Assembly (NCBI GenBank): GCA_022616275.1
Contig: JAKEFB010000125.1
Coordinates: 1 to 47,921, forward strand
Reading direction: 5' to 3'
DNA: 47,921 nt
Source of the DNA: Chloroflexota bacterium
Lineage (GTDB): Bacteria; Chloroflexota; Anaerolineae; Promineifilales; Promineifilaceae
How positions within the stretch are numbered: the stretch's first letter is position 1; every line of letters begins with the position of its first letter. The position numbers and the translations under genes are program-made. This document shows positions 19,512 to 46,626 of this stretch, one piece after another. The notes under the pieces are model-generated. The model ran no database searches and was not told the origin of the DNA. It saw nothing but the letters and a program-made list of their open reading frames with translations.

Positions 19512-19556
19512 AACCTCCGGGAGGTTGGCGATTTGACCGCTTGAACCTCCCGGAGG
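19512..19556. repeat. Palindromic pair of the AACCTCC(G/C)GGAGGTT family
   Basis: AACCTCCGGGAGGTT (19512-19526) and AACCTCCCGGAGG (19544-19556) are reverse complements and can pair across 17 bases. Each is also close to self-palindromic. They lie 3' of the M36 protease gene (stop at 19573) and could act as its terminator. The same motif appears at 30272-30327. Confidence 0.65.
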
Positions 19557-30271: not shown

Positions 30272-30327
30272 AACCTCCCGGAGGTTAATGCCTGGCGCCA
30301 ACCTCTGGGCCAAACCTCGGGGAGGTT
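30272..30327. repeat. Palindromes of the AACCTCCCGGAGGTT family between convergent genes
   Basis: AACCTCCCGGAGGTT (30272-30286), a half site AACCTCTGGG (30300-30309) and AACCTCGGGGAGGTT (30313-30327) fill the 89-base gap between two convergent stops. They can form hairpins on either strand and may act as a bidirectional terminator. The same family lies at 19512-19556. Confidence 0.65.
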
Positions 30328-33411: not shown

Positions 33412-33735
33412 TCAATTTTGGGTGGCTGATGTTAACCGGCTTCGGTCTAACACTTGCACTTCTCGTTGGATGCGGGCGCCGTATTCTAACTCGGCTACTT
33501 CGAGATCGTATCGAGCCTGCAAACGCAACCAGACATCAGGGCTGGTGCCGAAATACCGTGCTAATCGCAGCGCGGTGTCAGCAGTTACTGAACGTTTTCC
33601 ATTGACTATCTGACTAATCCGCAGAGGCGGCACACCAATATCGTGGGCCACACGATACCGGCTTAAGCCAAGCGGCTTCATAAAGTCTTCCAGCAATACC
33701 TCTCCAGGGTGTACGGGGGGGAGTCTGTCTTCCAT
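33412..33735 (-). CDS. HigA-type XRE-family antitoxin/regulator
   Basis: A 107-aa protein from ATG 33735 (a GTG at 33741 is also in frame, with AAGG five bases before it). It has the HigA signature PPVHPGEVLLEDFMKPLGLS and an HTH in YRVAHDIGVPPLRISQIVNG, then KRSVTADTALRLARYFGTS and WLRLQARYDLE. HigA proteins neutralise HigB RNases and repress their own operon. No HigB is adjacent on either side. It follows the helicase by 61 bases, 33 of which are a palindrome unit, and so is the last gene of the defence-like operon. It may serve as its regulator. Confidence 0.88.
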   Translation of the reverse strand: MEDRLPPVHPGEVLLEDFMKPLGLSRYRVAHDIGVPPLRISQIVNGKRSVTADTALRLARYFGTSPDVWLRLQARYDLEVAELEYGARIQREVQVLDRSRLTSATQN

Positions 33736-33760
33736 AATCACAAGTACCTTATGCGTGTGC

Positions 33761-33793
33761 AGGTGACAGTCACCTGGGAGGTGACTGTCACCT
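33761..33793. repeat. REP-like nested palindrome, unit A
   Basis: Arm AGGTGACAGTCACCT (33761-33775), spacer GGG, and the arm's exact reverse complement (33779-33793). Each arm is itself a 7-bp inverted repeat around a central A/T. It lies three bases after the helicase stop and 25 bases before the HigA-type start. Confidence 0.95.
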
Positions 33794-33796
33794 GGT

Positions 33797-36700
33797 TTAG
33801 GCGTAGATGTACTCGTAACAGACCAGGTGCAGATCGTCGCGGGTGATGGCTTTCATACGATTGCCGTTTTCCGGTTCAGGTGGCAAGCCGGCTTGTTGGT
33901 CGTAAAGTTGGCGGGTGGTATCTATCAACGGCCGCGCGTCCCCATTGGCGCTGTAGGCTCTCAAGGCGTCTCGTAATAACTGGATAGAAGCGCCTACCAA
34001 GGGCTGTTTCAGGAATTGGCGCAACTCGCGAATCTCCTGGCGGTCAAAGGCCGAATTCTGCAACTGCTCGCGTAAAATCTGGGCCACCAGCGTTTGTTCT
34101 TCGGCGACCGGCTTGTCTACGGCCGTTATGGCCTGTTGCTGGATCACCTCGTCCAGAATGTTTTCAATGACCTTTTCCTGGATGTCGTAGACGTTTACTT
34201 CGTCGTAGGGTGGCGGGAAGCGCGGCGTCTCCGGGCCGCAGGCGATGATTTGGGTGATCTGGTAGCGATTGTCTGTGATCTGGCGACGCGCCAGATCGTA
34301 GTAGCGCCAGAAGTGGGAGCGCCCATTTTCAGGATGGGGCGCAGTGAAGTAAAAGAAAACGCCCTTTGTCTCTCGCCTTTCCAGCCCGGAGTGGATGCCG
34401 TCGTCCAGGTCTGTCAACCACCTGGCGGCTTCCGTTAACAAAACGCGCTGCAACTCGGCCAGCAACGCTTCGCTGCTGGCCAGCTCCAGGAACGATTCCT
34501 GTTCGGCGATGACCGAATTGTCCTCGTCGGCGATGCGGCGCAGCGTGTTAAAATCGCGCGGCGTCACCACTTCGCCCAGTACGCTGGCATCGAGAAAGCC
34601 GGTCTGGTTGATCACGTCAATCTTGGAGGTCAGGCTGGCTACCAGCCCCAGCAGCTCCTCCAGCGCCGCTTCGGGGAACATGTTGTAAATGGCCAACACG
34701 TCAAAAGGCGACCCCAGGCGGTCAATGCGGCCGGCCCGTTGCACCATCCGCGTTGGGTTCCAGTGCAGATCGTAGTTAATGAGATAGCCGCAATCTTGCA
34801 GGTTTTGCCCTTCAGATAGAACGTCGGTGGAAACCAGGATGTTAATTTCCTGGTCCGTGTCCTTGATTTCCGGCCGGCCGTTAGCCACCGGGGCAAAGCG
34901 TTCCACCAGGCCGGCACGATCCTTGACGCCGGCGCCGCTGTCAATCCGTCGAATGGTCGGTTGGCCCATCGCTTCACGCCAGGCAGCGTTTTGGTCGCTG
35001 GTCAGGGCGCGATAAAGATAGCGGGCCGTGTCTTTGTAATAGGTAAAGACCAGCGCCTTCTGGCCGGGCAATTCCGTTTGCAGCAACTGCTTAAACTGTT
35101 GCAGCTTGGCGTCGTGGGCAAAGTCAATGTCGCGAATCTTGTACCAGACGTCGGTCAGGGCCTCGATATCTTCCTGGAGCGCCCGGTAGAGCCGCCGCCG
35201 ATCATATTGGTCGGCGTCCAGGCGGGGCAGGACGTCAATCACTTCCCGGGCGGCGACGTCTTCGTCAAATTGCCCGGCCCGCGACTGGGGCAGGTTGTCG
35301 GCGCTGTCCTCGTCGTCGGCCGCCAGCAGGCGCATGGCCTGGTGAAAGGAAGCCGAGTCCAGCACGACGCCGTCCTGCACGTACTCGGCGAAGGTCTTGA
35401 CGAATTCCAACGCCCGGCGGATGGAGATGCGGAAGGCGTCAATACTCGATTCCAGCCGTTTCAGAAAGCGGCTTTTGAAAATGCCTACCAGGGCCACCTG
35501 CCGGCCGAGTTCAAATTCGTCCGGGGCAAAGGCGGTCAACTTGTACGACTCCAGGTTGTAGTGGGCCAGGTTGAGGGCCTCAATGCGGTTGACGATCTGC
35601 CGGTAAATGCCCTCGTAAGTCGCTTCCAGATCGTAGCGGGCGGTACGCAACTGCCGCTCCGGCCAGGTAATGCGCTTGCCGCTAATCGTCGCTTCCGGGT
35701 AAGCGCGGCGGATAAATTGCCGGGTGCGGCGCACGACCACTTCTTCCAACAGGTTAAAGATGCGGATGCTGCCCTGCTCGATGGACTCGCGCCGCGCGGC
35801 CAGGAAATATTTGTACACGTCGCCAATGCCGGCCGCGGCAAAGTAAGTGCGGTCGTTGCCGGTAAAGAGGTTAATCTGGTTGTAGAGGTCGAAGATGTTA
35901 TTGTTGATCGGCGTGGCCGTCAGCAAAATGACCTTCTTGCGCTGGCCGGCCCGGCCGCGCCGGCCGTTGGCGGCCAGGATCGTCTCCAGCGTCTGGTAGC
36001 GCTTTGTCTGCCGGTTGCGGAAGTTGTGGGCCTCGTCAATGAGGAAGATGTCGGCGTCGTAGAATTCACGGCCGGTAAAGTCGTCAATGCCCAACTGTTC
36101 CTGGGAAACGATCTGGGCAGCAATAGAGGCGCTGTGCAGCTCCGTCTGCCACAGCCGGCGCAACGAGGCCGGGCAAATGACAACCGCCTTTTGCCGCTGG
36201 TGGTAGGCGGTGTCTTCGAGCAACTTCTTGCCGATCCAGGTCTTGCCCAGCCCGACCGAATCGGCGACGAGGACGCCGTCGTAGCGGGCCAGGATGCGCC
36301 GCGCTTTTTTGACTGCGTCTTCCTGGAACTCGGTCAACTCGACGGCCGAGCGGGTGCCCACCGGGCTCAGATCGGCGGCCAGATCGTCGCGGAAATATTC
36401 GTACAAGGCCTTCATGTAAATTTCGTAGGGCGTGTATTCCCGGCCGCCAAACTTGGAGTTCTCCAGCAGTTCAATCAACTCTTCTTTGAACCCGACGGCC
36501 TGCTGCCATTGATCGTCGTACCAGTGGGCCAGCTCCATGATGGCCCGCGCGCCGACTTCGCTTTTGAGCAGGCGCTGGGCGCCGGCCGAAATGGAGCCAC
36601 TCACCTGCTCCTGGGCGTGGTGGCTGACTTCGGCCCGGGCTTCGACGTCCTCGATCTCCTCGGCCGCCAGCAGCGTCTTGTGAACGAGGTTGAGTTCGCG

Positions 36701-37204
36701 GTTGGTGGTCAGCCCCGGCCCAGTGAAGTTGCTGCTGCCGGCGATGCCGACCAGCGGATTGAGGTAGTCAAAGGGGCCGGCTTGATCGTCGTGGCCGCCG
36801 TAAAAGAGGTAGCATTTGGCGTGCAGGAAGCGGCGCCGGCCGCTCTCGCCGGGAGCATGCCCCAGGTAGAGGCGCACTTCGACGTCGTCGCGGCGCAGAA
36901 AGCGGACGAGTTCCTCGACCAATTGCTGCGTCTCGGCGCGTAGCGGCTCGGCGTTCAGTTCGTGGCGCAAGAAGTCGGCCGCATCCGGCCGCAGCCCGAC
37001 CCGCTCGGCCGTCTTGGGATCGTCGCCCAGCAGCAGGCGCAGGCGGCGCACGGCCGGCAGGGTGTGGCGTAGCTGCTGGAAGCCGCGAATGCTGAAGTAG
37101 GCCGTGGCAATGTCGAGTTGTTGCCCGGCCTGGCTTTGCAGCAGGGCGTTCAGGACGTCGGCCAACCGGTTGTTGACGTTGTCTATGACGTAGGGTATGC
37201 GCAT
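33797..37204 (-). CDS. PLD-domain + SNF2/RapA-like SF2 helicase fusion
   Basis: A 1135-aa defence-type protein. The N-terminal phospholipase-D-like nuclease domain (about 1-190) has the HxK motif LHAKCYLF (H128, K130) and GSSNFTGPGL (156-165). The helicase follows: Walker A ADSVGLGKTW (314-323), Walker B LIDEAHNFRN (388-397), motif III LLTATPINNN (427-436), motif V STDVLSEGQNLQ (792-803) and motif VI QRAGRIDRLG (822-831). The C-terminal 300 residues are unassigned. Only one HKD-type motif is visible, so dimerisation would be needed for PLD nuclease activity. It probably translocates on DNA and cuts or remodels foreign DNA with its restriction neighbours. ATG 37204 lies 12 bases from palindrome unit B and has no good ribosome site. 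Confidence 0.9.
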   Translation of the reverse strand: MRIPYVIDNVNNRLADVLNALLQSQAGQQLDIATAYFSIRGFQQLRHTLPAVRRLRLLLGDDPKTAERVGLRPDAADFLRHELNAEPLRAETQQLVEELVRFLRRDDVEVRLYLGHAPGESGRRRFLHAKCYLFYGGHDDQAGPFDYLNPLVGIAGSSNFTGPGLTTNRELNLVHKTLLAAEEIEDVEARAEVSHHAQEQVSGSISAGAQRLLKSEVGARAIMELAHWYDDQWQQAVGFKEELIELLENSKFGGREYTPYEIYMKALYEYFRDDLAADLSPVGTRSAVELTEFQEDAVKKARRILARYDGVLVADSVGLGKTWIGKKLLEDTAYHQRQKAVVICPASLRRLWQTELHSASIAAQIVSQEQLGIDDFTGREFYDADIFLIDEAHNFRNRQTKRYQTLETILAANGRRGRAGQRKKVILLTATPINNNIFDLYNQINLFTGNDRTYFAAAGIGDVYKYFLAARRESIEQGSIRIFNLLEEVVVRRTRQFIRRAYPEATISGKRITWPERQLRTARYDLEATYEGIYRQIVNRIEALNLAHYNLESYKLTAFAPDEFELGRQVALVGIFKSRFLKRLESSIDAFRISIRRALEFVKTFAEYVQDGVVLDSASFHQAMRLLAADDEDSADNLPQSRAGQFDEDVAAREVIDVLPRLDADQYDRRRLYRALQEDIEALTDVWYKIRDIDFAHDAKLQQFKQLLQTELPGQKALVFTYYKDTARYLYRALTSDQNAAWREAMGQPTIRRIDSGAGVKDRAGLVERFAPVANGRPEIKDTDQEINILVSTDVLSEGQNLQDCGYLINYDLHWNPTRMVQRAGRIDRLGSPFDVLAIYNMFPEAALEELLGLVASLTSKIDVINQTGFLDASVLGEVVTPRDFNTLRRIADEDNSVIAEQESFLELASSEALLAELQRVLLTEAARWLTDLDDGIHSGLERRETKGVFFYFTAPHPENGRSHFWRYYDLARRQITDNRYQITQIIACGPETPRFPPPYDEVNVYDIQEKVIENILDEVIQQQAITAVDKPVAEEQTLVAQILREQLQNSAFDRQEIRELRQFLKQPLVGASIQLLRDALRAYSANGDARPLIDTTRQLYDQQAGLPPEPENGNRMKAITRDDLHLVCYEYIYA

Positions 37205-37216
37205 GTTGAGTGAATC

Positions 37217-37249
37217 AGGTGACAGTCACCGGGGAGGTGACTGTCACCT
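37217..37249. repeat. REP-like nested palindrome, unit B
   Basis: AGGTGACAGTCACC (37217-37230, final T replaced by G), spacer, and AGGTGACTGTCACCT (37235-37249). It occupies 33 of the 54 bases between the first RAYT gene and the helicase. Confidence 0.95.
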
Positions 37250-37258
37250 AAGTCCTAC

Positions 37259-37843
37259 CTAATCCTCCAGATACTTCAACTCATCAATCAAGGTTCGCTC
37301 GATCAGGTAATCATTCACGAATTCCTGGTAAGCGGCCGGGTCGGGAAAGAAATCGGCCACGAATTGGCGGTCAACGAGCGTGCCGTCCCGTTCGCCCAGC
37401 CACTCCGGGTAATTGGAATACGGCCACTCTTCCGGCCGCTGGACCAGGCCGTGTTTGGCCGGGTTGGCGTGAATGTAGCGGCAGAGGTGGCGCAGGTAGC
37501 GCTCGCTGTCTACCGGCCGGGCCTCAAAGCGGTGCTCAAAGAGCGTGCCGCTGTGATTATAGCGATTATTGTAGGCTTTGGAGTAGCTGTTGAAAACTCG
37601 CTGCGGCAGCAGCCCGGCCGGGTGGTCGCCGTCCTGCCGCACCAGGAAGTGGTAATGGTTGGGCAACAGGCAATAAACGATGATGGCCGCGTTCAGTTCG
37701 CGCCGGTATTTCTTGAGGCGGGAGAGGACGAAGAGGTAGTTGGTTTCCTCGCGGAAAATGGTCAACTGCCGCGCGCCGCGATTGTAGAAGTGGTAGTAGC
37801 GGCCGTCTTCCCAGGTGATGGTGTCTTTTCGGGCGTAGGGCAT
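37259..37843 (-). CDS. REP-associated tyrosine transposase (RAYT), copy 1
   Basis: A 194-aa HUH/Y1 transposase (PF01797 type, TnpA-REP clade). It has YYHFYNRGARQLTIF near the start, LLPNHYHFLV with the HUH metal pair H63 and H65, and the catalytic tyrosine in RYIHANPAKHGLV (Y123). RAYTs cut and join single-stranded DNA at palindromic REP sequences and are usually single-copy, non-selfish genes. Here REP-like palindromes lie at both ends (units B and C). Unlike most RAYTs it is embedded in an operon, between the Mrr endonuclease and the helicase. It differs from copy 2 at only eight residues (13, 52, 74, 94, 147, 151, 153 and about 176). Confidence 0.95.
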   Translation of the reverse strand: MPYARKDTITWEDGRYYHFYNRGARQLTIFREETNYLFVLSRLKKYRRELNAAIIVYCLLPNHYHFLVRQDGDHPAGLLPQRVFNSYSKAYNNRYNHSGTLFEHRFEARPVDSERYLRHLCRYIHANPAKHGLVQRPEEWPYSNYPEWLGERDGTLVDRQFVADFFPDPAAYQEFVNDYLIERTLIDELKYLED

Positions 37844-37857
37844 AGGTTACTCTCAAC

Positions 37858-37890
37858 AGGTGACAGTCACCTCCCAGGTGACTGTCACCT
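37858..37890. repeat. REP-like nested palindrome, unit C
   Basis: AGGTGACAGTCACCT (37858-37872), spacer CCC, AGGTGACTGTCACCT (37876-37890). The last base is shared with the TAA stop of the Mrr gene. The RAYT start is 14 bases away on the other side. Confidence 0.95.
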
Positions 37891-38867
37891 TATTCGAGCG
37901 GGATCAGGGTCTTTTGCAAATTGAGCTTCTCTTTCATTCCGGCCGAGAGGGAATCATAGTTTTCAACGAGAATGCCGGCAAGTTGATTGCCGTTGATCAG
38001 GCCGATTCTCTTGAAGTCTGGCTTTTCGGCCTCCTCGCGGGCTTTGCCGTTGAAGTCGGACGTCGTCACGAAGGCAGCCTGAGCCTTTTCCGCCACGCTA
38101 CTGCGAAAACCCTTAATGTCCTTGTGATTGACGTACCTGCCGCTCTTGTACCTTTTAGCCTGCACCTTCAGGTCTACAGTCGCAAATTCGTAGATGCGTA
38201 GTGTCCCCTCCACGTCAACGCCTCCATCACCGGACTTACCTACGTGCTTGGCTTCAAAGCGAATAGCCGTTAGTAGTTCGGTAACGAATATTTCAAACTC
38301 ATCGGCCGAGAGTTCTAGAAGCCGGTCGAGAATGAGCCGGGTAATGGCTTCTTCTGTTACCATCGTTTTTCGTGCTTCTCGCGGCAACGACACTTTATAG
38401 GGAGAAAGTATTTCCTCGTACTGAGGAACCCGAAAGACGGCGAGCGTTGAACGCAAAGTATTCTGGGCTGGTATCGAAAGCGTGTTGCGCAGGAGTGGTT
38501 CGTCAAACCAGGTCACCGGCTTGCGATGGTGAAAGTGGGAGCCTGTTGGATTCGTAATATACGTGTACGGGCCGGTGATACGGCCGACCATGAGGCTGTC
38601 ATTATCTTCGGTAGGGGTGATGACATAGGTATCAACCTCGACCTCTTTTAGAAAACGCCAGATTTGCCCCACGTTTTGACCTACACGCAAGGGCGAAGCA
38701 GAGGAATGTTCGGCCTGATAGAGGATACGAAGAGCGTCCTTATCCTCGATCTGGCTCAAGTTCTTAGCTATGAAGCCAATACCAATGTAGCCACCGCTCA
38801 GAAAATCCTGGGCGTAGCGGCCGCCGTCAGCGCGGACGACGTGGACGACGGGTACGTTATTGGTCAT
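37890..38867 (-). CDS. Mrr-family restriction endonuclease with PUA/EVE-like N-terminal domain
   Basis: A 325-aa protein. The C-terminal Mrr_cat domain (about 183-310) has ELSADEFEIFVTELLTA, the PD-(D/E)XK site as GDGGVD (213-218) and VQAKRYK with Q236-K238, then GFRSSVAEKAQAAFVTTSDF. The N-terminal half (about 5-150) includes VDTYVITPTEDNDSLMVGRI and GPYTYITN, then HFHHRKPVTWF (111-121). This strand-turn pattern resembles PUA/EVE-type readers of modified bases in type IV restriction proteins. That likeness is by eye and moderate. It may cut modified or improperly modified DNA. ATG 38867 has GGAGG about seven bases upstream. Its stop is joined to palindrome unit C. Confidence 0.88.
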   Translation of the reverse strand: MTNNVPVVHVVRADGGRYAQDFLSGGYIGIGFIAKNLSQIEDKDALRILYQAEHSSASPLRVGQNVGQIWRFLKEVEVDTYVITPTEDNDSLMVGRITGPYTYITNPTGSHFHHRKPVTWFDEPLLRNTLSIPAQNTLRSTLAVFRVPQYEEILSPYKVSLPREARKTMVTEEAITRLILDRLLELSADEFEIFVTELLTAIRFEAKHVGKSGDGGVDVEGTLRIYEFATVDLKVQAKRYKSGRYVNHKDIKGFRSSVAEKAQAAFVTTSDFNGKAREEAEKPDFKRIGLINGNQLAGILVENYDSLSAGMKEKLNLQKTLIPLE

Positions 38868-38886
38868 AGGCTGGCCTCCAGAGGTC

Positions 38887-38919
38887 AGGTGACAGTCACC
38901 TTGGAGGTGACTGTCACCT
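38887..38919. repeat. REP-like nested palindrome, unit D
   Basis: AGGTGACAGTCACCT (38887-38901), spacer TGG, AGGTGACTGTCACCT (38905-38919). The last base is the first of the methylase TAA stop (minus-strand reading), as in unit C. It fills 33 of 51 bases between methylase and Mrr genes. Confidence 0.95.
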
Positions 38920-41900
38920 TAGAGATGTCGCAAAACATTGAGCGCCCAGGCGCGGGCCTGCTGGGCTTCAGCGCGGCTAAGGGCTTCGCTGTGGGCTGCC
39001 TTGTTGCGCAGGGCAATAGTGGTATTGTCGTTGAGCTGGCCCAAGACGCCATCATCGCCAAAGATGGTTTCAGCGGCGCGGGTGAAGCGGGCCTCGGTGA
39101 AGCGGCGTAAGGCGCTTTCTCTACTGCTGGCCATGATAATGGGGAAGCTGCCCAGGGTTAAATGCCTTTCGCGGCGCATAAATTGCTGCAGGAAAGCGTT
39201 GTGGCAGTCGCCGTCGCCATAGCCCGATTCCTCGCGGAAGGGCAGGAAGAGGCGCTGCATGAGGGCCGTCTCCACCGCTTTGGCGTAGGCGATGACGCTG
39301 GTCGAGAAGTCCAGGTGGCCGGGCAGGTGGGCAATGTTGTATTCGCCGGTCAGCAGGAAGGTGGGCACGTCGCCGGCAAAGAGGCGCCAGCCGGGCAGCG
39401 CGGCGTTCAGCCGCTCCTCTTCGGGGCTGACGTTGACCCGGCTTTGCAGCCTTTGGGCGGCCGGCAGCACCCCGGCGGCGATGACCTCCAGGGCGGCGTC
39501 GGGATCTTTTTGCAGCTCCTCGTCCTGGAGGGCCTTTTCTTTGGCTTCGGCCAGGGCCTGCTCGTAGGCCGGCCGCTCGATCAGCTCGATCTCCTCATCC
39601 GTCAGGCCGTAGAGCTGGTAGACGATCTGGTCAATGAGGGCGTCGGTGGCGGCCAACTGCTGCTTGATGGGCCGCAGGACGGCCAGCGACTTTTCGTACT
39701 CAGCCTGGATTTGCCCTTGAATCTTGACCAGGTTTACACCGAGGCGGTTACGATTTTGGTGTAAGCGATAATAAAACTCTTCCCAGGGTAACTCTGCCTC
39801 CCCCTTTTGATAATCGCCTGGATAGTTTTGAATGACACTGTAGCCGGTTAGTGCCTTGACGCCGAATTTGTCCTCACGCGGACGGATGCTTAACACGCCT
39901 TCCAGCCAGTTTAGGAAATGTTTAATTTCGGCTTGTTTTTGTTTATTAAACTCGATCATTTGCACAGCTAAAAAAGCCAGTTCATCATGAATAATATCGG
40001 TCCGACCATTTTGGGTTGCCTCCCGAGCTAATCCGATTAGCCATACTAAATCATGGTTTTTATAATGAGCTTTTATTTCCTTACCTATCGTAGAACGTTG
40101 TTCATCATTAGTGTTAAATTCAACCTTGGGAATTGGTAATGATTGAACATCTGAAGGGTTAAGTTTTGGGAAAGTGTTCTTCGCAAAATTAGGCAGCTTA
40201 ATTCGGCTATAGAAAGAAATTAGATAGGAATTAATCACGGCTAAAATGAATCGCAAATCATAAGGCATGGATACCTTTGACAGGCATGGAATTATGCTAT
40301 GCCCATAGTAGAACTCTTCATTGGTTAACTGTGTTTGAATTCGGTGGTTAGATCCTGGTACTTCCCTAAACAAGAGTCTCTCACCATAAAAGTATTTGGG
40401 GTCACGTGGAGCAGCTAACCAAGGGCCATAGCTTATCCATTTGCCTGACCAGTCTAATTCATACCTTGCTACATCTCCACCTTCTAACCACTTCTTGAAT
40501 GTTTCGTCTTTCTGGTGAGCTGAATGAAATGCCCGACTCCTGATGAGCTTTTCATCTTGCCCTCTGTATTTGTCGTAAGCTGTCAAACCTTGCGCGATGT
40601 CACAACAAACAGCAAGGGTTTGCGATTTAGACATGATTTTGCTAAGCAAATCATCTAACTCGGGTGTCATGAGATATTCAATGCGGGCATAAGCGTTTTT
40701 CAACCAAGAGGCCTGAGGAATGCGATAGTGGGGCTTTACATTTAGAGTGTTAATACTGTGGTCAAGTGTTACTTTCGTCTCGCTTTCAGAACTTGGAGCT
40801 TGATTAGAAAATATGGGAACACAAGTATAAACAACAGCCTCAGCGAACACTCGTCCAGTGACCCAGAGACTATTTAGAGTAGCCCTAGATAGAATTAATC
40901 TTCTTAAATTTTCATTGGTTTCGAGGCGCAACCATACTTCTGGAACTATGTATGAAAGCAACCCATGCGAGCGGAGTATTTGCCAGAGTTTTTCGAGGAA
41001 GAATATGTAGCTATCAAAATCAAGTTGAAAACTAATATAATTTTCAGAGAAATAAGGCTTGTCGTTCTCTCCAAAGTCAGCTCCATAAGGCGGATTTCCT
41101 ATAATAGCATCAAATCCACCCCACTCAAGCAACTGCACATCCTGTCCGCCCGGCCGGCCGGGGGCAAAGAAGACTTCCGGGAATTCCAATTCCCAATGGA
41201 AAAAGCGTTTGTCCTCGGCCGCTTGCAGCGCCGTTTCGGCCACCTGCGGGGCGTCAAATTGGGCCACCTCCGGAGGGCGGCCGTGGGGGTTTTTGAGCCA
41301 GTTGCGGGTGTCGTTGTGGCGCAGAAACAGCACCGCCGGGTCTGCTTTTTTGCCGGGGGCGTTGCCAAACCAGCGGCTGGTATAGACGTCCAGCACCCGC
41401 TTATAATAGGCCAGGTGGTCGCCGGCGTCACGGTAGGCGGCCTGGCTCTCCTGGACCTGGGACACGGTGTTGTCGCTGAGAGTGCTGACCCGGCGCATCA
41501 GGTCGGTGGCCAGGCTGAGGCCGGTGAACGGCCCGCCGCTAAAGAGGCTCAACTGGACCGCCTTTTCGGCCGTGCCCTCGACCGCTTCCTCCACCTCCTT
41601 AATTCGCGCTCCAATCAGGCTGTTGCCGTGCTTGAGGTGGTGGTCGAGGAAGCTGAGCGGCGCGCCCAGGGTGAAGGCGTCCAGCCACAGCGAGACCTTG
41701 GCCAGCTCGACGGCCATCTCGTTCAGGTCCACGCCGTAGACGCAGCGCTTGAGGACGGCCCGCTTGAGGAGGGCGACGCGGGTCAGCCGGGCGGTGTCAA
41801 TGGTCACGCCTTGCCGCTCCATCTCGACGACGATGTCATCGCGAATCTGCTCCAGCATACCCCAGACCGGGTTTTCGCTCCAGGCGTTGAGGAAGGTAAT

Positions 41901-44150
41901 CAGCCGGTTGGAGATGAAGTCCACCGCCTCGACCAGGAAATGGCCGCTGCCCGCGGCCGGGTCCAGGACGCGGACGTTAAGGCAGTCGTCGGCCAGGGCT
42001 TGCATCTCCGGCGTGTTCCACAATAGTCCGGCCGGCTGGTCGCCGCCGCGGGCCTTGACCCTATCGCGGTGCTGGCGGAACTGCCGCTGCGCCAGGCGCA
42101 GCCGGGGGGCCAGTTCCTCAAATTTTCGTTCCAGCACCGGCCCGGCGGTATGCTCGACGATGTACTTGACGATGTAATCGGGGGTGTAATAGCTGCCGGT
42201 GGCCTTGCGTTCTTTCTTGTCGTTCTCCAGGTAAACGTCGCCCTTTTCCAGGGTGGCGTAGATTTTGCCTTTGGCCTCCTGGTAGGGCACAACTTTTTCC
42301 TTGCCCTTTTCCTTGACGACGGCCAGCTTCTCCCCAGCGATGCGCAGCTTGAACTCCAATAACCCTTCGTAGATGGAGCCTAAATGGCGCACGCCGAGGG
42401 ATTTGTAGTCAATAAAGACCAGGGCCTGGGTCTTGTCGTCCACGTCGCGGCAGAGGCGGTCCAGCCCTAAGGCCAGGGACTGGTCGGGGATGGCGTAATC
42501 GGCCAGGAACTCGCCGCTCTCGCTGACCTGGCTGAAGAGACCGCCGTTGTAGGTCGGCAAATTAAGCGCCTCGGCCCCGCTGTCAATCAGCTCAAAAAGC
42601 CTCTCTAGCCGCTCGTAGAGCGCGGTCGAGGTGGTGGTGTACTGCGCCTTGAGCCGCGCTGGGGCCTCGTCCAGGATCGTTCCGGCCGCTTCGGCAATTT
42701 CCCGCTTCAAGCGGTAAAGGCTCTCCTGGCGGTAGCCTCGTTCTTCGTTGAGCGGCAGCAGCTCCAGGCTTTCGGCATAAAGCACGAACATCAGCCGGTA
42801 AAGGAAAGTCAGCGTGCCTTCGTAGACCATCTGCAGCGCCTCTTCGTCAAAGTCGGCCCGCTGCTGGCCTACCTGGCGGCGAATGTCACCGATAAAGCCG
42901 GCGGCAAAGTGGGGGAAGATTTCCTCAAAGGTCCGATCCTTGAGCCGTTCACCCAGCCCTTTGGCGTAGTCGGCCGATTGGCGGCGCAGGTCGTCGAGGA
43001 AGCCGGTGAAGGCCGGGCGGCGGAAGAAGAGCCACCAATATTTGAGGGCGGTGACCTGATCGGGGGCCGCCAGGGCTTCTTCGAGGTCTATTTCGTAGTA
43101 GTTGGTGGCTTTGTTGTCGGCCGTGGCCGAATAGAGCCGCCACAACTTGCCGTTGCTGACGACGACCCAGGGCACGTCGCCCTGCTCCAGGACGCTGACG
43201 ACGAGCGCGCCGGGGATTTCCTCCGGTGTGTCCGGATCGCGGGCCGGGTCCTGGTCGTCCAGGTTGCGGTTCCAGACGTAAGTCAGGGCCAGGGCGATGG
43301 GTTTGTCTCGCTCCTGGCCGGCGTAGAACAGGTAGTCAGGTTCTGCGGCGGCCGACTCGCCGGCCTTATTCCTGGCCCACTGAAAACCCAGCGCCGTAAA
43401 GAGCGGTTCCAACAGCCCCTGGCGGACGGCGTTTTCCTTCTGGCCGGTGTAGCGGCGGCGAGCCTCCGCCAGCAAGCGGGCCACTTCCCGGCCGGTGGGG
43501 CGGACGTCTTCGTCCCAGGCCGGGGTGAGTTTGGGGTCGGCGAGGCGCTCCTTCAGGTAATAATCGGAAAAGAGGGCGCGGTTGTTGAAATATGGCTCGC
43601 TCCACTCGGCCAGGGTATAGGCCGAACGCAGCTTGTCCCACTGGTAAACGCCGTCGGCTTCGGTGAAGGTGAAGCGCTGGAGGACGCGCAGGGCGACGGG
43701 GCGCGGCCGGCGGCGGTCAACGGTCAGCGGGCGTGGCCGGATGACCAGGCGGAACGGTCTGCCGCGGCTTTTGCTTTTTTCGCGCTCTTTTTCGAGCAGG
43801 ACGAAGTCGAGCGTTTCGTAATCGGTGGTCAGGACGAGGAGGGCGCTTTCCGGCCGTTCGCGGAAGCGGCGGGCGATGGCCTGGCGCAACTGGACGGTGA
43901 CGCTGCGCACTTCCAGCAGGTAAATGGCGATTTCGCCGTCCACCGGATCGGCCCCCACCAGCCGGATGCGGCGGATTTGCTGGCGCAGCTCTTCGCTGTC
44001 CAGCCCCAGGGCGGCGTGGTCGAGGGCGGCCGCGCGGTCTACGTCGTAGCCCAGCCTGGCAAAGAAGTGGACGATCTGGTCGGCGTTTTCAAGCTGGCCG
44101 AGGTCGGCGGCCGTGAGTTGAATGTCGTTGGTCTGGAACCCGCTAGACAT
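38919..44150 (-). CDS. Giant Eco57I-type N6-adenine methylase with degenerate nuclease region and HEPN-like tail
   Basis: A 1743-aa protein. ATG 44150 follows GGAGGT by five bases and is preferred to the ATG at 44171. Order: unassigned N-terminal part (1-170); a nuclease-like region with PDYLFY (271-276) and PIALALTYVWNRNLD (284-298), where family nucleases have a D/E-x-K; then a WVVVSNGKLWRLYS segment; methylase with GSYYTPDYIV (652-661), motif I DPAAGSGHFLV (730-740), GVDLNEMAVELAK and catalytic NPPYG (1019-1023); target-recognition region (about 1030-1470, AT-rich DNA); and a C-terminal domain with YAKAVETALMQRLFLP and RNKAAH (1715-1720), an RNxxxH HEPN-type motif. It methylates adenine in a target site to protect host DNA. 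It could alternatively be a single-chain IIG enzyme. Confidence 0.88.
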   Translation of the reverse strand: MSSGFQTNDIQLTAADLGQLENADQIVHFFARLGYDVDRAAALDHAALGLDSEELRQQIRRIRLVGADPVDGEIAIYLLEVRSVTVQLRQAIARRFRERPESALLVLTTDYETLDFVLLEKEREKSKSRGRPFRLVIRPRPLTVDRRRPRPVALRVLQRFTFTEADGVYQWDKLRSAYTLAEWSEPYFNNRALFSDYYLKERLADPKLTPAWDEDVRPTGREVARLLAEARRRYTGQKENAVRQGLLEPLFTALGFQWARNKAGESAAAEPDYLFYAGQERDKPIALALTYVWNRNLDDQDPARDPDTPEEIPGALVVSVLEQGDVPWVVVSNGKLWRLYSATADNKATNYYEIDLEEALAAPDQVTALKYWWLFFRRPAFTGFLDDLRRQSADYAKGLGERLKDRTFEEIFPHFAAGFIGDIRRQVGQQRADFDEEALQMVYEGTLTFLYRLMFVLYAESLELLPLNEERGYRQESLYRLKREIAEAAGTILDEAPARLKAQYTTTSTALYERLERLFELIDSGAEALNLPTYNGGLFSQVSESGEFLADYAIPDQSLALGLDRLCRDVDDKTQALVFIDYKSLGVRHLGSIYEGLLEFKLRIAGEKLAVVKEKGKEKVVPYQEAKGKIYATLEKGDVYLENDKKERKATGSYYTPDYIVKYIVEHTAGPVLERKFEELAPRLRLAQRQFRQHRDRVKARGGDQPAGLLWNTPEMQALADDCLNVRVLDPAAGSGHFLVEAVDFISNRLITFLNAWSENPVWGMLEQIRDDIVVEMERQGVTIDTARLTRVALLKRAVLKRCVYGVDLNEMAVELAKVSLWLDAFTLGAPLSFLDHHLKHGNSLIGARIKEVEEAVEGTAEKAVQLSLFSGGPFTGLSLATDLMRRVSTLSDNTVSQVQESQAAYRDAGDHLAYYKRVLDVYTSRWFGNAPGKKADPAVLFLRHNDTRNWLKNPHGRPPEVAQFDAPQVAETALQAAEDKRFFHWELEFPEVFFAPGRPGGQDVQLLEWGGFDAIIGNPPYGADFGENDKPYFSENYISFQLDFDSYIFFLEKLWQILRSHGLLSYIVPEVWLRLETNENLRRLILSRATLNSLWVTGRVFAEAVVYTCVPIFSNQAPSSESETKVTLDHSINTLNVKPHYRIPQASWLKNAYARIEYLMTPELDDLLSKIMSKSQTLAVCCDIAQGLTAYDKYRGQDEKLIRSRAFHSAHQKDETFKKWLEGGDVARYELDWSGKWISYGPWLAAPRDPKYFYGERLLFREVPGSNHRIQTQLTNEEFYYGHSIIPCLSKVSMPYDLRFILAVINSYLISFYSRIKLPNFAKNTFPKLNPSDVQSLPIPKVEFNTNDEQRSTIGKEIKAHYKNHDLVWLIGLAREATQNGRTDIIHDELAFLAVQMIEFNKQKQAEIKHFLNWLEGVLSIRPREDKFGVKALTGYSVIQNYPGDYQKGEAELPWEEFYYRLHQNRNRLGVNLVKIQGQIQAEYEKSLAVLRPIKQQLAATDALIDQIVYQLYGLTDEEIELIERPAYEQALAEAKEKALQDEELQKDPDAALEVIAAGVLPAAQRLQSRVNVSPEEERLNAALPGWRLFAGDVPTFLLTGEYNIAHLPGHLDFSTSVIAYAKAVETALMQRLFLPFREESGYGDGDCHNAFLQQFMRRERHLTLGSFPIIMASSRESALRRFTEARFTRAAETIFGDDGVLGQLNDNTTIALRNKAAHSEALSRAEAQQARAWALNVLRHL

Positions 44151-44171
44151 GGACACCTCCAAGCACTCCAT

Positions 44172-44204
44172 AGGTGACAGTCACCTGGGAGGTGACTGTC
44201 ACCT
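44172..44204. repeat. REP-like nested palindrome, unit E
   Basis: AGGTGACAGTCACCT (44172-44186), spacer GGG, AGGTGACTGTCACCT (44190-44204). It lies just downstream of the extended -10 at 44213-44221 on the minus strand, so the methylase transcript would begin at or next to it. Confidence 0.95.
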
Positions 44205-44212
44205 GGGGGTGG

Positions 44213-44221
44213 ATTATACCA
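44213..44221 (-). promoter_or_regulatory. Extended -10 promoter element before the methylase gene
   Basis: Minus-strand TGGTATAAT, a TGn-extended perfect -10, lies between palindrome units E and F. At 17-base spacing the -35 position falls on the edge of unit F (TCACCT). The expected transcription start is next to unit E. It should drive methylase, Mrr, RAYT1, helicase and the HigA-type gene. Confidence 0.6.
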
Positions 44222-44235
44222 CGAGTTCGTGACAT

Positions 44236-44268
44236 AGGTGACAGTCACCTGGGAGGTGACTGTCACCT
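44236..44268. repeat. REP-like nested palindrome, unit F
   Basis: AGGTGACAGTCACCT (44236-44250), spacer GGG, AGGTGACTGTCACCT (44254-44268). It ends two bases before the stop codon of the nucleotidyltransferase gene and covers the -35 region of the methylase promoter. Confidence 0.95.
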
Positions 44269-44270
44269 GG

Positions 44271-44951
44271 TTACCTGGTGAGGCCGGCCGTCACCTGGGA
44301 GATAAGGGTTTGTTCGAGCCGGGCGAGTAGTTCGGGCGGGAGGCGGTCTACCTGGCGGAAGTGGCGGGTGTCGAGTTGGCGGCGCAGGCCGGCCAGGGTG
44401 ATGGTCCGGTCCCTGATTTCGTCGAGGTAGTGCAGGGCGCGCCAGAAGTGGCGGCGCTGGACGCTGATGGCCACGTGGCCGGCGTAGTGCCAGAGGGAGT
44501 CGAGGGTGGCCAGGTAGAGGGCCTGAACGTCGGGGGCGGGGCGGCCGGCCCAACTGGCGCGCATGAGGCTCTCAATCCGGCCGGAGCGGTCGAAGGCGAC
44601 CTGCCAGCGGTCTCGTTTGGCGACGAGGTTGGCCAGGCATAAGAAGCCGAGGTCTAGTTCGAGAAAGGTTTCCAGCCAGAAGGCGACGAGGAAGTTGTTG
44701 GGGCCGTAGGTGGCCTCGAAGCTGTGGATGACGGGGAAGAGGGTGGGGATGCGTTGTTGCCAGTCGTGGAAGACGGCCGTTACCTGGGCCTCTTGGGCGA
44801 CGACGACGGAGAGGTCAATGTCGGAAAGGTCGTCATTAAAGCCGGTGGCGGCCGAGCCGACGAGGAGGGCGCCGGCGATGCGGTTGTCGGTTTGCAGGGC
44901 GGCCAGGAGGCGGTCGAGGGTGGTCTGGCGGTCGTGGGGGGAGAGGGTCAT
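44271..44951 (-). CDS. Nucleotidyltransferase (MNT/aminoglycoside-adenylyltransferase-like)
   Basis: A 226-aa protein. The nucleotidyltransferase core has RIAGALLVGSAATGFNDDLS and then DIDLSVVV (about residues 24-51), giving the GS ... D-x-D metal site. A third acidic strand is plausible in FLELDLGFLC. The second half is helical (LYLATLDSLWHYAGHVAISV), as in aminoglycoside adenylyltransferases and in MNT proteins paired with HEPN toxins. MNT antitoxins can AMP-modify HEPN RNases. The next gene downstream ends in a HEPN-like motif, so such a pairing is worth considering. It is flanked by palindrome units F and G. Confidence 0.85.
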   Translation of the reverse strand: MTLSPHDRQTTLDRLLAALQTDNRIAGALLVGSAATGFNDDLSDIDLSVVVAQEAQVTAVFHDWQQRIPTLFPVIHSFEATYGPNNFLVAFWLETFLELDLGFLCLANLVAKRDRWQVAFDRSGRIESLMRASWAGRPAPDVQALYLATLDSLWHYAGHVAISVQRRHFWRALHYLDEIRDRTITLAGLRRQLDTRHFRQVDRLPPELLARLEQTLISQVTAGLTR

Positions 44952-44967
44952 GACAAGGTGAAGGGTG

Positions 44968-45000
44968 AGGTGACAGTCACCTGGGAGGTGACTGTCACCT
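44968..45000. repeat. REP-like nested palindrome, unit G
   Basis: AGGTGACAGTCACCT (44968-44982), spacer GGG, AGGTGACTGTCACCT (44986-45000). It is preceded by a short ATGACAAGGTGAAGGGTG stretch of the G-rich repeat type and lies between RAYT2 and the nucleotidyltransferase gene. Confidence 0.95.
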
Positions 45001-45006
45001 GGTCAC

Positions 45007-45591
45007 TTAGTCTTCCAGGTATTTCAGCTCATCTATCAGGGTTCGCTCGATCAGGTAATCGGTCACGAATTCCTGGTAAGCAGCCGGGTCGGGAAAGAAA
45101 TCGGCCACGAATTGGCGGTCAACGAGCGTGCCGTTGCGCTGGCCAAGCCAATCCGGGTAATTGGAATAGGGCCATTCTTCCGGCCGCTGGACGAGGCCGT
45201 GTTTGGCCGGGTTGGCGTGGATGTAGCGGCAGAGGTGGCGCAGGTAGCGCTCGCTGTCTACCGGCCGGGCCTCAAAGCGATGCTCAAACAGCGTGCCGCT
45301 GTGGTTGTAGTGATTGTTGTAGGCTTTGGAGTAGCTGTTGAAAACTCGTTGCGGCAGTAGCCCGGCCGGTTGGTCGCCGTCTTGCCGCACGAGGAAGTGG
45401 TAATGGTTGGGCAAGAGGCAATAGACGATGATGGCGATGTTGAGTTCGCGCCGGTATTTCTTGAGGCGCGAGAGCACGAAGAGGTAGTTGGTTTCCTCGC
45501 GGAAAATGGTCAACTGGCGGGCGCCGCGATTGTAGAAGTGGTAGTAGCGGCCGGCTTCCCAGGTGATGGTGTCTTTTCGGGCGTAGGGCAT
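45007..45591 (-). CDS. REP-associated tyrosine transposase (RAYT), copy 2
   Basis: A 194-aa protein from ATG 45591 (MPYARKDTITW), matching the start of copy 1. The frame runs ten codons further upstream into the palindrome. HUH pair H63 and H65 in PNHYHFLV and Tyr123 in RYIHANPAK are intact. It is about 96% identical to copy 1 (186 of 194 residues by eye), and the nucleotide sequences also agree closely through the whole gene. The difference is spread, not clustered. REP-like units flank it on both sides (G, H and I). Both copies lack stops or frameshifts, so both may be active. Confidence 0.95.
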   Translation of the reverse strand: MPYARKDTITWEAGRYYHFYNRGARQLTIFREETNYLFVLSRLKKYRRELNIAIIVYCLLPNHYHFLVRQDGDQPAGLLPQRVFNSYSKAYNNHYNHSGTLFEHRFEARPVDSERYLRHLCRYIHANPAKHGLVQRPEEWPYSNYPDWLGQRNGTLVDRQFVADFFPDPAAYQEFVTDYLIERTLIDELKYLED

Positions 45592-45608
45592 GTGGTCCTC
45601 TAGTGAAC

Positions 45609-45623
45609 AGGTGACAGTCACCT
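45609..45623. repeat. REP-like single arm, unit H
   Basis: One arm, AGGTGACAGTCACCT, followed by GGGACGAATTATACC, without the second arm. It lies 17 bases upstream of the RAYT2 start and immediately downstream of the extended -10 at 45631-45639. Confidence 0.9.
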
Positions 45624-45630
45624 GGGACGA

Positions 45631-45639
45631 ATTATACCA
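45631..45639 (-). promoter_or_regulatory. Extended -10 promoter element before RAYT copy 2
   Basis: Minus-strand TGGTATAAT, the same nine bases as the element before the methylase gene, again placed seven to eight bases from a palindrome arm. It should drive RAYT2 and the nucleotidyltransferase gene. No convincing -35 was seen. Confidence 0.55.
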
Positions 45640-45670
45640 TGACTCCGTAGCTGAAGGGGAGGTGGAGGAG

Positions 45671-45772
45671 AGGTGACGGTCACCTGGGGGGTGAGGTGAC
45701 AGTCACCTGGGAGGTGAGGTGACGGTCACCTGGGGGGTGAGGTGACAGTCACCTGGGAGGTGACTGTCACCT
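45671..45772. repeat. Cluster of five REP-like arms, unit I
   Basis: Arms at 45671-45685, 45694-45708, 45717-45731, 45740-45754 and 45758-45772. The first and third have a central G (AGGTGACGGTCACCT) instead of A/T. Spacers are eight, eight, eight and three bases, most ending GGTG or GGG. The last two arms form a standard unit. It lies between RAYT2 and the GDPD-like gene and looks like the expansion end of the array. Confidence 0.92.
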
Positions 45773-45779
45773 GGCGCGG

Positions 45780-46517
45780 CTAATAAGTGAAGTATTTATG
45801 GTTTTGGCCGGAGCCCCGGCCGAAATAGGACCATTGGGGAAAGTTAAAGTCGGAGGTGACAGAGCGTGGAAGCAACAGTACTGCCTGCAAAAATGTTTCC
45901 AGGTCGGGCACGTTGTAGATGTTGACCTCGTAACCCCAGCGAGTGACCTGATCAAATTGCTGCCGCAGCTCTGGCTGCTGCCAGTTCATTGAAAAGCGAG
46001 TGAGGCCCCATCTGGCCAGCATTTGTAGGATGGCCTGGGCCTGATCGGGCGCCGCCTGGATCAGGGGCGCCAAAAAATCAATTGGGCACTGGAGGATGGC
46101 GCCAGGATGAGAGGCGGTAATCCGTTTAAAGCCGCCTTCCATCAGGCACTCGATGTTGGCATTGAACCAGAGGTCTTCATCTTCCAGGCCGGCTCCGGCA
46201 ACCAATTCCAGGACCCTGTCTAGCACTGGACCGGCGGCTTTTAGATCGATTTTAATCGCCCGGCCGTGGCTTTTTATTTTATCTAGAACTTCAGGCAGCG
46301 TGAGCAGGCGCTCGCCAGGCGCCAGGGGGGTCTCAGTAAACAGGTCGTGGCGCAGGATTACTTCCCGGCCGGCCGGATCCATTTGGACATCCACTTCTGC
46401 CCAGCGCACATCGGAGGCCAGAAACTGATGCAAGTTGGCTTCGTCATTGACGCCGTGCCAGACCAACTGCACGCCGGCCGGCAGCGCTTTCCGATCGCGA
46501 ATAAGCTCTGTCAACAT
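45780..46517 (-). CDS. GDPD-like/FAM151 (menorin)-type TIM-barrel protein
   Basis: A 245-aa protein. ATG 46517 has GGAAG nine bases upstream. The in-frame ATG 46547 has no such site. Visible: LVWHGVNDEANLHQFL, WAEVDVQMDPAGREVILRHD, GRAIKIDLKAAGPVLDRVLE and LWFNANIE, the strand ends of a phosphodiesterase-type TIM barrel. The WHGVN start and EVDV acidic pair recall FAM151/DUF2181 proteins more than typical GDPD (which have HRG and E-x-D). Substrate unknown. No signal peptide. It is the first gene upstream of the repeat-rich island and is followed within eight bases of its stop by the palindrome cluster. Confidence 0.65.
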   Translation of the reverse strand: MLTELIRDRKALPAGVQLVWHGVNDEANLHQFLASDVRWAEVDVQMDPAGREVILRHDLFTETPLAPGERLLTLPEVLDKIKSHGRAIKIDLKAAGPVLDRVLELVAGAGLEDEDLWFNANIECLMEGGFKRITASHPGAILQCPIDFLAPLIQAAPDQAQAILQMLARWGLTRFSMNWQQPELRQQFDQVTRWGYEVNIYNVPDLETFLQAVLLLPRSVTSDFNFPQWSYFGRGSGQNHKYFTY

Positions 46518-46626
46518 TAGTTTCGGCTTCCTTTTCTTCCCAGCCATTGGGATTCATGTAGAGATAGGCAGAAGAGGCGCCGGCATCTTGCCGACAGGAT
46601 GGAGGCGCTCCATGGCGATCTAATGA

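Follow-up and report, generated by a model that had tools for sequence, protein, structure and literature searches.

Why should one short palindrome stand at every gene junction of a single operon and be missing from the DNA around it? The question is raised by a stretch of 47,921 nucleotides (the window, in what follows) from a Chloroflexota bacterium of the class Anaerolineae (assembly GCA_022616275.1, contig JAKEFB010000125.1), in which copies of the arm AGGTGACNGTCACCT are strung through an operon of eight genes. Two of the genes encode transposases of the kind associated with repetitive extragenic palindromes (REPs), the REP-associated tyrosine transposases or RAYTs. The likely answer, in our judgement, is that a system of RAYTs and REPINs (REPs paired in inverted order and able to form a hairpin), a REPtron without the GTAG tag and with two RAYTs that have REPINs of their own, colonised a defence-type operon, probably one acquired horizontally, and that it did so mainly by local spread. 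What supports this in the sequences is the anatomy of the units, the completeness and conservation of the two RAYTs, their linkage to units, orthologous loci free of the arm, a common spacer, and a density of units that falls with distance from RAYTs.

Paired palindromes in the gaps of an operon

When both strands of the whole window are searched with up to two mismatches allowed, AGGTGACNGTCACCT is found 20 times between positions 33761 and 45772, the number given by an initial annotation made from the sequence alone. Nineteen of the copies are exact, and the other (37217-37231) ends in G where T is expected. The same search finds no copy in the rest of the window (shuffled sequence averages 0.07 matches), so far as this arm is concerned in agreement with the annotation, which had noticed none in the 36 kb left over; a different REP family, AACCTCCNGGAGGTT, does have two arms there, at 19512-19526 and 30272-30286.

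The twenty arms make up eight paired units of 33 bp, with the three-base spacer already noticed, and four further arms. Each unit consists of a 15-bp palindrome, three nucleotides, and a second 15-bp palindrome in inverted order, and its single strand could fold either into two small hairpins or into one 15-bp hairpin. All eight have the two inverted REPs and the hairpin potential by which a REPIN is recognised. The spacer is GGG in six units (33761-33793; 37217-37249, with the one mismatched arm; 44172-44204; 44236-44268; 44968-45000; and 45740-45772), CCC in one (37858-37890), which is a GGG unit in the opposite orientation, and TGG in one (38887-38919). The unpaired arms are a single one upstream of RAYT2 (45609-45623) and three at a 23-bp period (starting at 45671, 45694 and 45717) that run into the last complete unit, so that five arms form an array at 45671-45772. 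Arrays of REP arms are familiar from Escherichia coli, where they are called bacterial interspersed mosaic elements (BIMEs). The array seen here resembles them in being built of REP arms and differs in sequence and in its 23-bp period (BIMEs are named in PMC6006769).

As had been claimed, arms occur in each of the seven gene gaps between the HigA-type gene and the GDPD-like gene, and the next gap (79 bp, beyond the GDPD-like gene) contains none. Between calls of open reading frames (ORFs), the seven gaps measure 55, 54, 46, 51, 99, 55 and 158 bp, the last becoming 188 bp if RAYT2 begins at the ATG at 45591. Four successive gaps do each hold one 33-bp unit, although these gaps measure 46-55 bp and not the 46-61 bases first given. 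That units touch stop codons is correct for two of the eight, each of which overlaps one by a single base: the last base of one unit belongs to the stop codon of the Mrr-type gene (position 37890) and that of another to the stop codon of the methylase gene (38919). The unit at 44172 abuts the methylase start codon.

Two RAYTs and the units that accompany them

RAYT1 (37259-37843, minus strand, 194 aa, TnpA-REP-like) and RAYT2 (45007-45591, minus strand, 194 aa counted from ATG) are both flanked on both sides by units or arms. The presence of two RAYT genes, as annotated, is upheld by profile matches and by 96% mutual protein identity. The Y1_Tnp domain (HUH type, single tyrosine) scores 26.3 and 27.7 bits against a Pfam cut-off of 23, and the NCBIfam profile NF047646 (REP_Tyr_transpos) scores 76.9 and 75.8 bits, just below its cut-off of 80. 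The HUH and tyrosine motifs are present, the RAYTs carrying NHYH and YIHANP. By sequence, RAYT1 matches E. coli TnpA-REP (PDB 4er8) at E 9.4e-07. RAYT1 could be modelled only poorly (mean pLDDT 58.7, from 7 sequences); the model's top Foldseek match is again 4er8 (E 1.3e-05, TM 0.42), with IS200/IS608-type transposases next, and this lends weak backing to an identity as REP transposase.

At the DNA level the two genes are 93% identical, with dN of 0.021, dS of 0.305 and dN/dS of about 0.07, which suggests purifying selection after the two diverged. No other close RAYT was found in the 8.53-Mb genome; a third, on contig C308, is 51% identical, and a remnant lies on C145.

Beside the arm there is no fixed tetranucleotide of the sort known as the GT[AG]G foot; the first two positions outside it show a weak bias towards G and A. 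Nor did a fixed insertion target emerge, the pooled flanks of the units giving weak preferences at most. The transposases differ at what may be the corresponding place. Where 4er8 has W-Q, an alignment puts F-E in RAYT1 and RAYT2, and in 24 aligned RAYTs the W position is always F, with E after it in 21 and Q in 3. In RAYT subclasses whose REPs carry GTAG, W94, Q95 and R104 are well conserved (PMC6006769). If the W-Q of 4er8 is the W94/Q95 pair, as we infer, then its change could explain the missing foot.

The association between RAYTs and units of this layout extends beyond the window. When nested 15-bp palindromes with a spacer of 2-6 nt are sought near RAYT genes obtained by protein search, 14 of 26 such genes, the window's two included, prove to have a 15-3-15 type unit no more than 300 bp away (12 of 24 without them). 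The count began as 22 of 37 rows, became 18 of 30 genes after removal of seven duplicates, and reached 14 of 26 once four genes found solely through their unit (L100, L105, L134 and L147) were set aside; the 26 come from 29 protein-search genes, one more each in G045, G055 and G056 standing outside the count. As background, five units occur in 247 kb lying more than 2 kb from any RAYT. The palindrome varies with RAYT lineage (AGGTGAC, AAGTGAC, ATGTGAC, AACCTCC, ACCCTCC, AAGTTCC, AGGTGCG, AGAAGTT, AGACGTT and ACAAATT) while the 15-3-15 layout stays constant, the listed RAYT-linked units having a 3-nt spacer with a single exception.

At 21 RAYT loci, the window excluded, units number 1.54 per kb within 300 bp of the RAYT, 0.11 at 0.3-1 kb, 0.054 at 1-2 kb, 0.015 at 2-4 kb and 0.018 at 4-10 kb (p = 0.026 for 0.3-2 kb against 2-10 kb). 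Since REPIN clusters beside RAYTs are known in Pseudomonas fluorescens (PMC3116915), the gradient extends a known trait.

Distribution of the arm and of the operon

Of the 28 exact copies of the arm in the genome, 19 are in the 12-kb island (binomial p ~5e-48). Nine lie elsewhere: six are paired, on contigs C153, C166 and C208, and one, on C33, is in apparent coding sequence. The units on C153 and C208 also have the GGG spacer, and that on C166 has CCG. The C166 unit (L019:628-660) falls inside a cas5 ORF, at its 3' end; the cas operon concerned also includes CT1975-like and Cse1 genes. Other copies in the genome adjoin ordinary genes.

Relaxing the search to two mismatches changes the picture, with 241 matches of the AGGTGAC arm in the genome against 36 for a reversed control. 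Many of the one-mismatch places, among the first 50 matches listed, are pairs of AGGTGACNGTCACTT and AAGTGACNGTCACCT, and a sample of 545,812 bases (40 stretches, from the odd-numbered contigs C1-C79) holds eight arms of the AG/AA type, on four contigs, and none of the AG/AG type. The matches and the sampled arms rule out the notion that the whole family is confined to the island; rather, the island carries its own subtype, and a sister subfamily is scattered. Wide scatter over unrelated sites, which the initial annotation had said would tell against its proposal, is accordingly seen in part, at one or two mismatches, while the exact arm is concentrated as proposed. The AACCTCCNGGAGGTT family (AACCTCC) serves as an internal control for clustering: its 188 exact copies occupy at least 14 contigs, with no more than six per 12 kb, among the 50 listed, and units related to it lie near the RAYT on C308. 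The remnant on C145 was considered as a RAYT for the sister subfamily and set aside: its contig has no GTGAC-type arm, and the 2.2 kb scanned around it contain no nested repeat.

The exact arm was found in 11 of 59 related genomes (60 with the window's own), in 41 copies in G045, 28 in G057 and one to eight in the others. In public genomes, a search that may not cover records close to the window's own genome lists 80 loci with the paired unit, out of at least 110 stretches. By record title nearly all the listed carriers are Anaerolineae or other Chloroflexota, with one from Ignavibacteriales and one from Thermoplasmata; one listed locus is on a contig shared with G057, a genome of the same class (L127 and L200 are identical). 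With one mismatch allowed, 18 of the 80 have at least three arms. Of 82 units in other genomes, a simple ORF caller places 28 in gaps of tandem genes, 12 in convergent and 5 in divergent gaps; 33 overlap a called ORF, and 4 are at the ends of their loci. On dispersal the evidence is mixed: the unit occurs at 80 listed loci elsewhere and has a scattered sister subfamily, yet copies of the exact subtype cluster together and ORFs are overlapped by 33 of the 82 units. The view that systematic placement inside an operon is unusual for REPs was put too strongly, units between tandem genes being ordinary (28 of 82) and RAYT-adjacent clusters having been published (PMC3116915). Spacers in other genomes, nearly always of 3 nt, are variable, and GGG or CCC makes up 2 of 76 three-base spacers there, against seven of the eight island units (one of them inverted). 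At the 80 listed loci (L079-L158), 8 of 65 gene 3' ends near units lie six bases inside the unit, where the TGA of AGGTGA would serve as stop codon.

All eight genes of the operon are on the minus strand. From the left edge of the colonised stretch they are a HigA-type HTH antitoxin-like gene (33412-33741; NCBIfam TIGR02607, 109.5 bits, cut-off 47.7); a gene for a 1135-aa protein with PLD (HKD) and SNF2-type helicase domains (33797-37204; Pfam PLDc_2, SNF2-rel_dom and Helicase_C; PADLOC C3a139 HKD+Snf2, 1.3e-64); RAYT1; an Mrr-type restriction endonuclease-like gene (37890-38867, 325 aa; Pfam Mrr_cat; PADLOC PDC-S02, 8.6e-103); a gene for an Eco57I-type adenine methylase similar to DrmMI and to type IIG enzymes (38919-44171, 1750 aa; Pfam Eco57I and TaqI_C; PADLOC DrmMI, 2.4e-79); a nucleotidyltransferase-like gene (44271-44951, 226 aa; Pfam NTP_transf_2, 24 bits, cut-off 21); RAYT2; and, at the right edge, a GDPD/menorin-like gene (45780-46547; Pfam Menorin, 26.7 bits, cut-off 25). 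To judge from family resemblance, the operon may serve in anti-phage defence. It resembles DISARM and the HKD-Snf2 candidate defence operons in its DrmMI-like methylase, its SNF2-type helicase with a PLD domain and its Mrr-type nuclease, although the curated DISARM cut-offs are not reached (the DrmD match has 152 bits, the cut-off being 610).

Near full-length orthologues of the helicase (55-72% identity) are present in five of 298 genomes of the class, all outside the window's family; a sixth match, in G165, is broken and partial (61%). Comparison of orthologous operons, which the initial annotation had proposed, finds the exact arm at none of the five helicase loci (a partial comparison for G232 and G273, whose contigs are short). 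A long methylase match is on the helicase contig in three of the five, with different genes intervening. At L073, L074 and L076 the methylase remains near the PLD/Snf2 helicase, with a varying set of genes in between (AAA-like and others, their translations judged by eye). Within the window's family, the Mrr gene has no match in 52 other genomes at E 1e-30, and the methylase has matches in 8 of the 52 at E 1e-100, all partial and of 34-38% identity. The operon was probably acquired horizontally, and the simplest order would place its acquisition first and the arrival of RAYT and units later.

An operon so foreign-looking to its family might instead have come with its units in place, from a donor genome full of them, with no local spread at all, and the copy numbers of G045 and G057 show that some relatives do hold tens of exact arms. 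We allow this some chance, though a small one. The genomes with the five best full-length helicase orthologues hold 0 or 1 exact arm each, none of them in the operon; no such dense donor was seen, a second full pair being present within the fetched flanks at 2 of the 80 listed loci; and the closest RAYT (73%), which has a stop codon within it and is flanked by units on either side, belongs to the window's own family.

Proposed local spread and its rivals

In the reading we prefer, the methylase/Mrr/PLD-helicase operon would have been gained horizontally first, and a RAYT with flanking units would then have entered it. E. coli TnpA-REP acts on REP units as single-stranded DNA, which it recognises and cuts (PMC8266576); by analogy, the RAYT most likely recognises and cuts the units in this form, and it would copy or move them into neighbouring intergenic DNA. 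One founder unit, with a GGG spacer, may have spread in this way, mainly locally, until every permissive gap was filled. The cutting, the copying, the preference for nearby sites and the order of events are proposals. RAYT copying with mainly local spread is favoured by the GGG founder signature, the occurrence of both orientations, the completeness of the RAYTs, the linkage across lineages, and the arm-free orthologous loci. The initial annotation had supposed that a REP/RAYT element spread through a restriction-type operon or became part of it. The first idea is supported by the arm-free loci, by the linkage, and by the share of exact arms in the island (19 of 28); for the second, nothing was found that shows a working role.

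Several observations weigh against local spread. Outside their ORFs, the RAYT1 and RAYT2 copies have little but palindromes in common. (This, together with the dS of 0.305, leaves a single recent duplication of one RAYT cassette unsupported.) The same dS stands beside arms that are nearly identical, which suggests that the units are younger, perhaps much younger, than the RAYT split or that their uniformity has been maintained. By the criteria of the scan, 12 of 26 RAYTs have no unit, and the density gradient past 300 bp depends on nine units. Copies of the sister subfamily, whose arms (AGGTGACNGTCACTT and AAGTGACNGTCACCT, separated by 3 or 4 nt) each differ from the island arm by one base, are spread over the whole genome, and a RAYT dedicated to them was looked for there and not found, so that spread cannot have been strictly local throughout. 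The helicase orthologue of G152 has a related nested unit within its coding region (L076:6871-6903, by a looser scan). Finally, the comparison genomes include no close strain in which an empty site might be seen.

Perhaps the units are maintained by selection, as intercistronic hairpins that tune mRNA stability or relative expression, with the RAYT merely their supplier. Four of them, folded as RNA, give -27 to -30.6 kcal/mol (z -6.1 to -7.5), so that effects on mRNA or on operon expression are possible; arms fill seven of seven gaps, and they are nearly unchanged where the synonymous sites of the RAYTs have diverged. We give this a slighter chance still. The five orthologous helicase loci do without the arm, as does the gap beyond the GDPD-like gene, and one unit of the eight is inverted. 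In other genomes the units also take up the convergent, divergent and ORF-overlapping positions counted above, beside the 28 tandem ones, and a common GGG spacer fits copying, not convergence. A promoter scan gave 8 sites (4.0 expected) and a terminator scan 12 (15.8 expected). A similar stretch with ATTATACCA recurs at 44206-44236 and 45624-45671, between or beside the units upstream of the methylase and RAYT2, and may be a duplicated promoter.

Related operons differ in their middle genes, which might point to swapping, in which case the near-identical REPINs at the junctions would mark off a row of exchangeable gene cassettes, the defence genes being swapped by way of RAYT-made ends or recombination between units; we think this very improbable. 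That the cluster is a by-product of mis-assembly, or its contig a contaminant, we scarcely credit: the assembly comprises 309 contigs, and its contamination is estimated at 5.5%, but the units, far below usual read length, lie between different complete ORFs, the contig bears two arms of the genome's abundant AACCTCC family, and GGG-spacer units are also found on C153 and C208.

The system as a whole has known counterparts. REPINs and RAYTs of P. fluorescens and E. coli likewise comprise short inverted pairs of palindromes, mostly extragenic, with a specific HUH transposase and RAYT-adjacent clusters (PMC3116915, PMC6006769). The present system differs from them in its 33-bp unit, 3-nt spacer, want of a GTAG tag and F-E in place of the W-Q of 4er8, and in having two near-identical RAYTs in one operon whose every gap is occupied. 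With TIRtrons/TIRYT it shares RAYT-like genes flanked by GTAG-less inverted repeats, some self-complementary, some dimers or moderately large families (PMC3733652), a comparison made by description and not by repeat sequence. The hosts of TIRtrons named in the part of that paper cited here include Acidobacteria, Pseudomonas and Stenotrophomonas, Anaerolineae not being among those named there; the paper also states that GTAG repeats occur in Chloroflexi. On these published descriptions, the island system belongs with REPIN/RAYT and the GTAG-less TIRtrons. Neither the clustering of REPINs next to a RAYT nor the presence of REPs between genes is novel, both being known or ordinary. Two features seem new, a compact 15-3-15 layout linked with a RAYT group of the F[EQ] type and the filling of one operon; by title or abstract, no description of RAYT/REPIN in Anaerolineae was found in a search that most subscription journals lie outside.

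The finding places a REPIN/RAYT system in what is apparently a member of the Chloroflexota. Its untagged 15-3-15 units, with a palindrome that depends on the RAYT, form a natural set for studying how RAYTs recognise DNA without GTAG, and the density gradient around RAYTs makes local REPIN spread testable. A fully occupied defence-type operon, in turn, offers a test bed for the effects of hairpins on operon expression.

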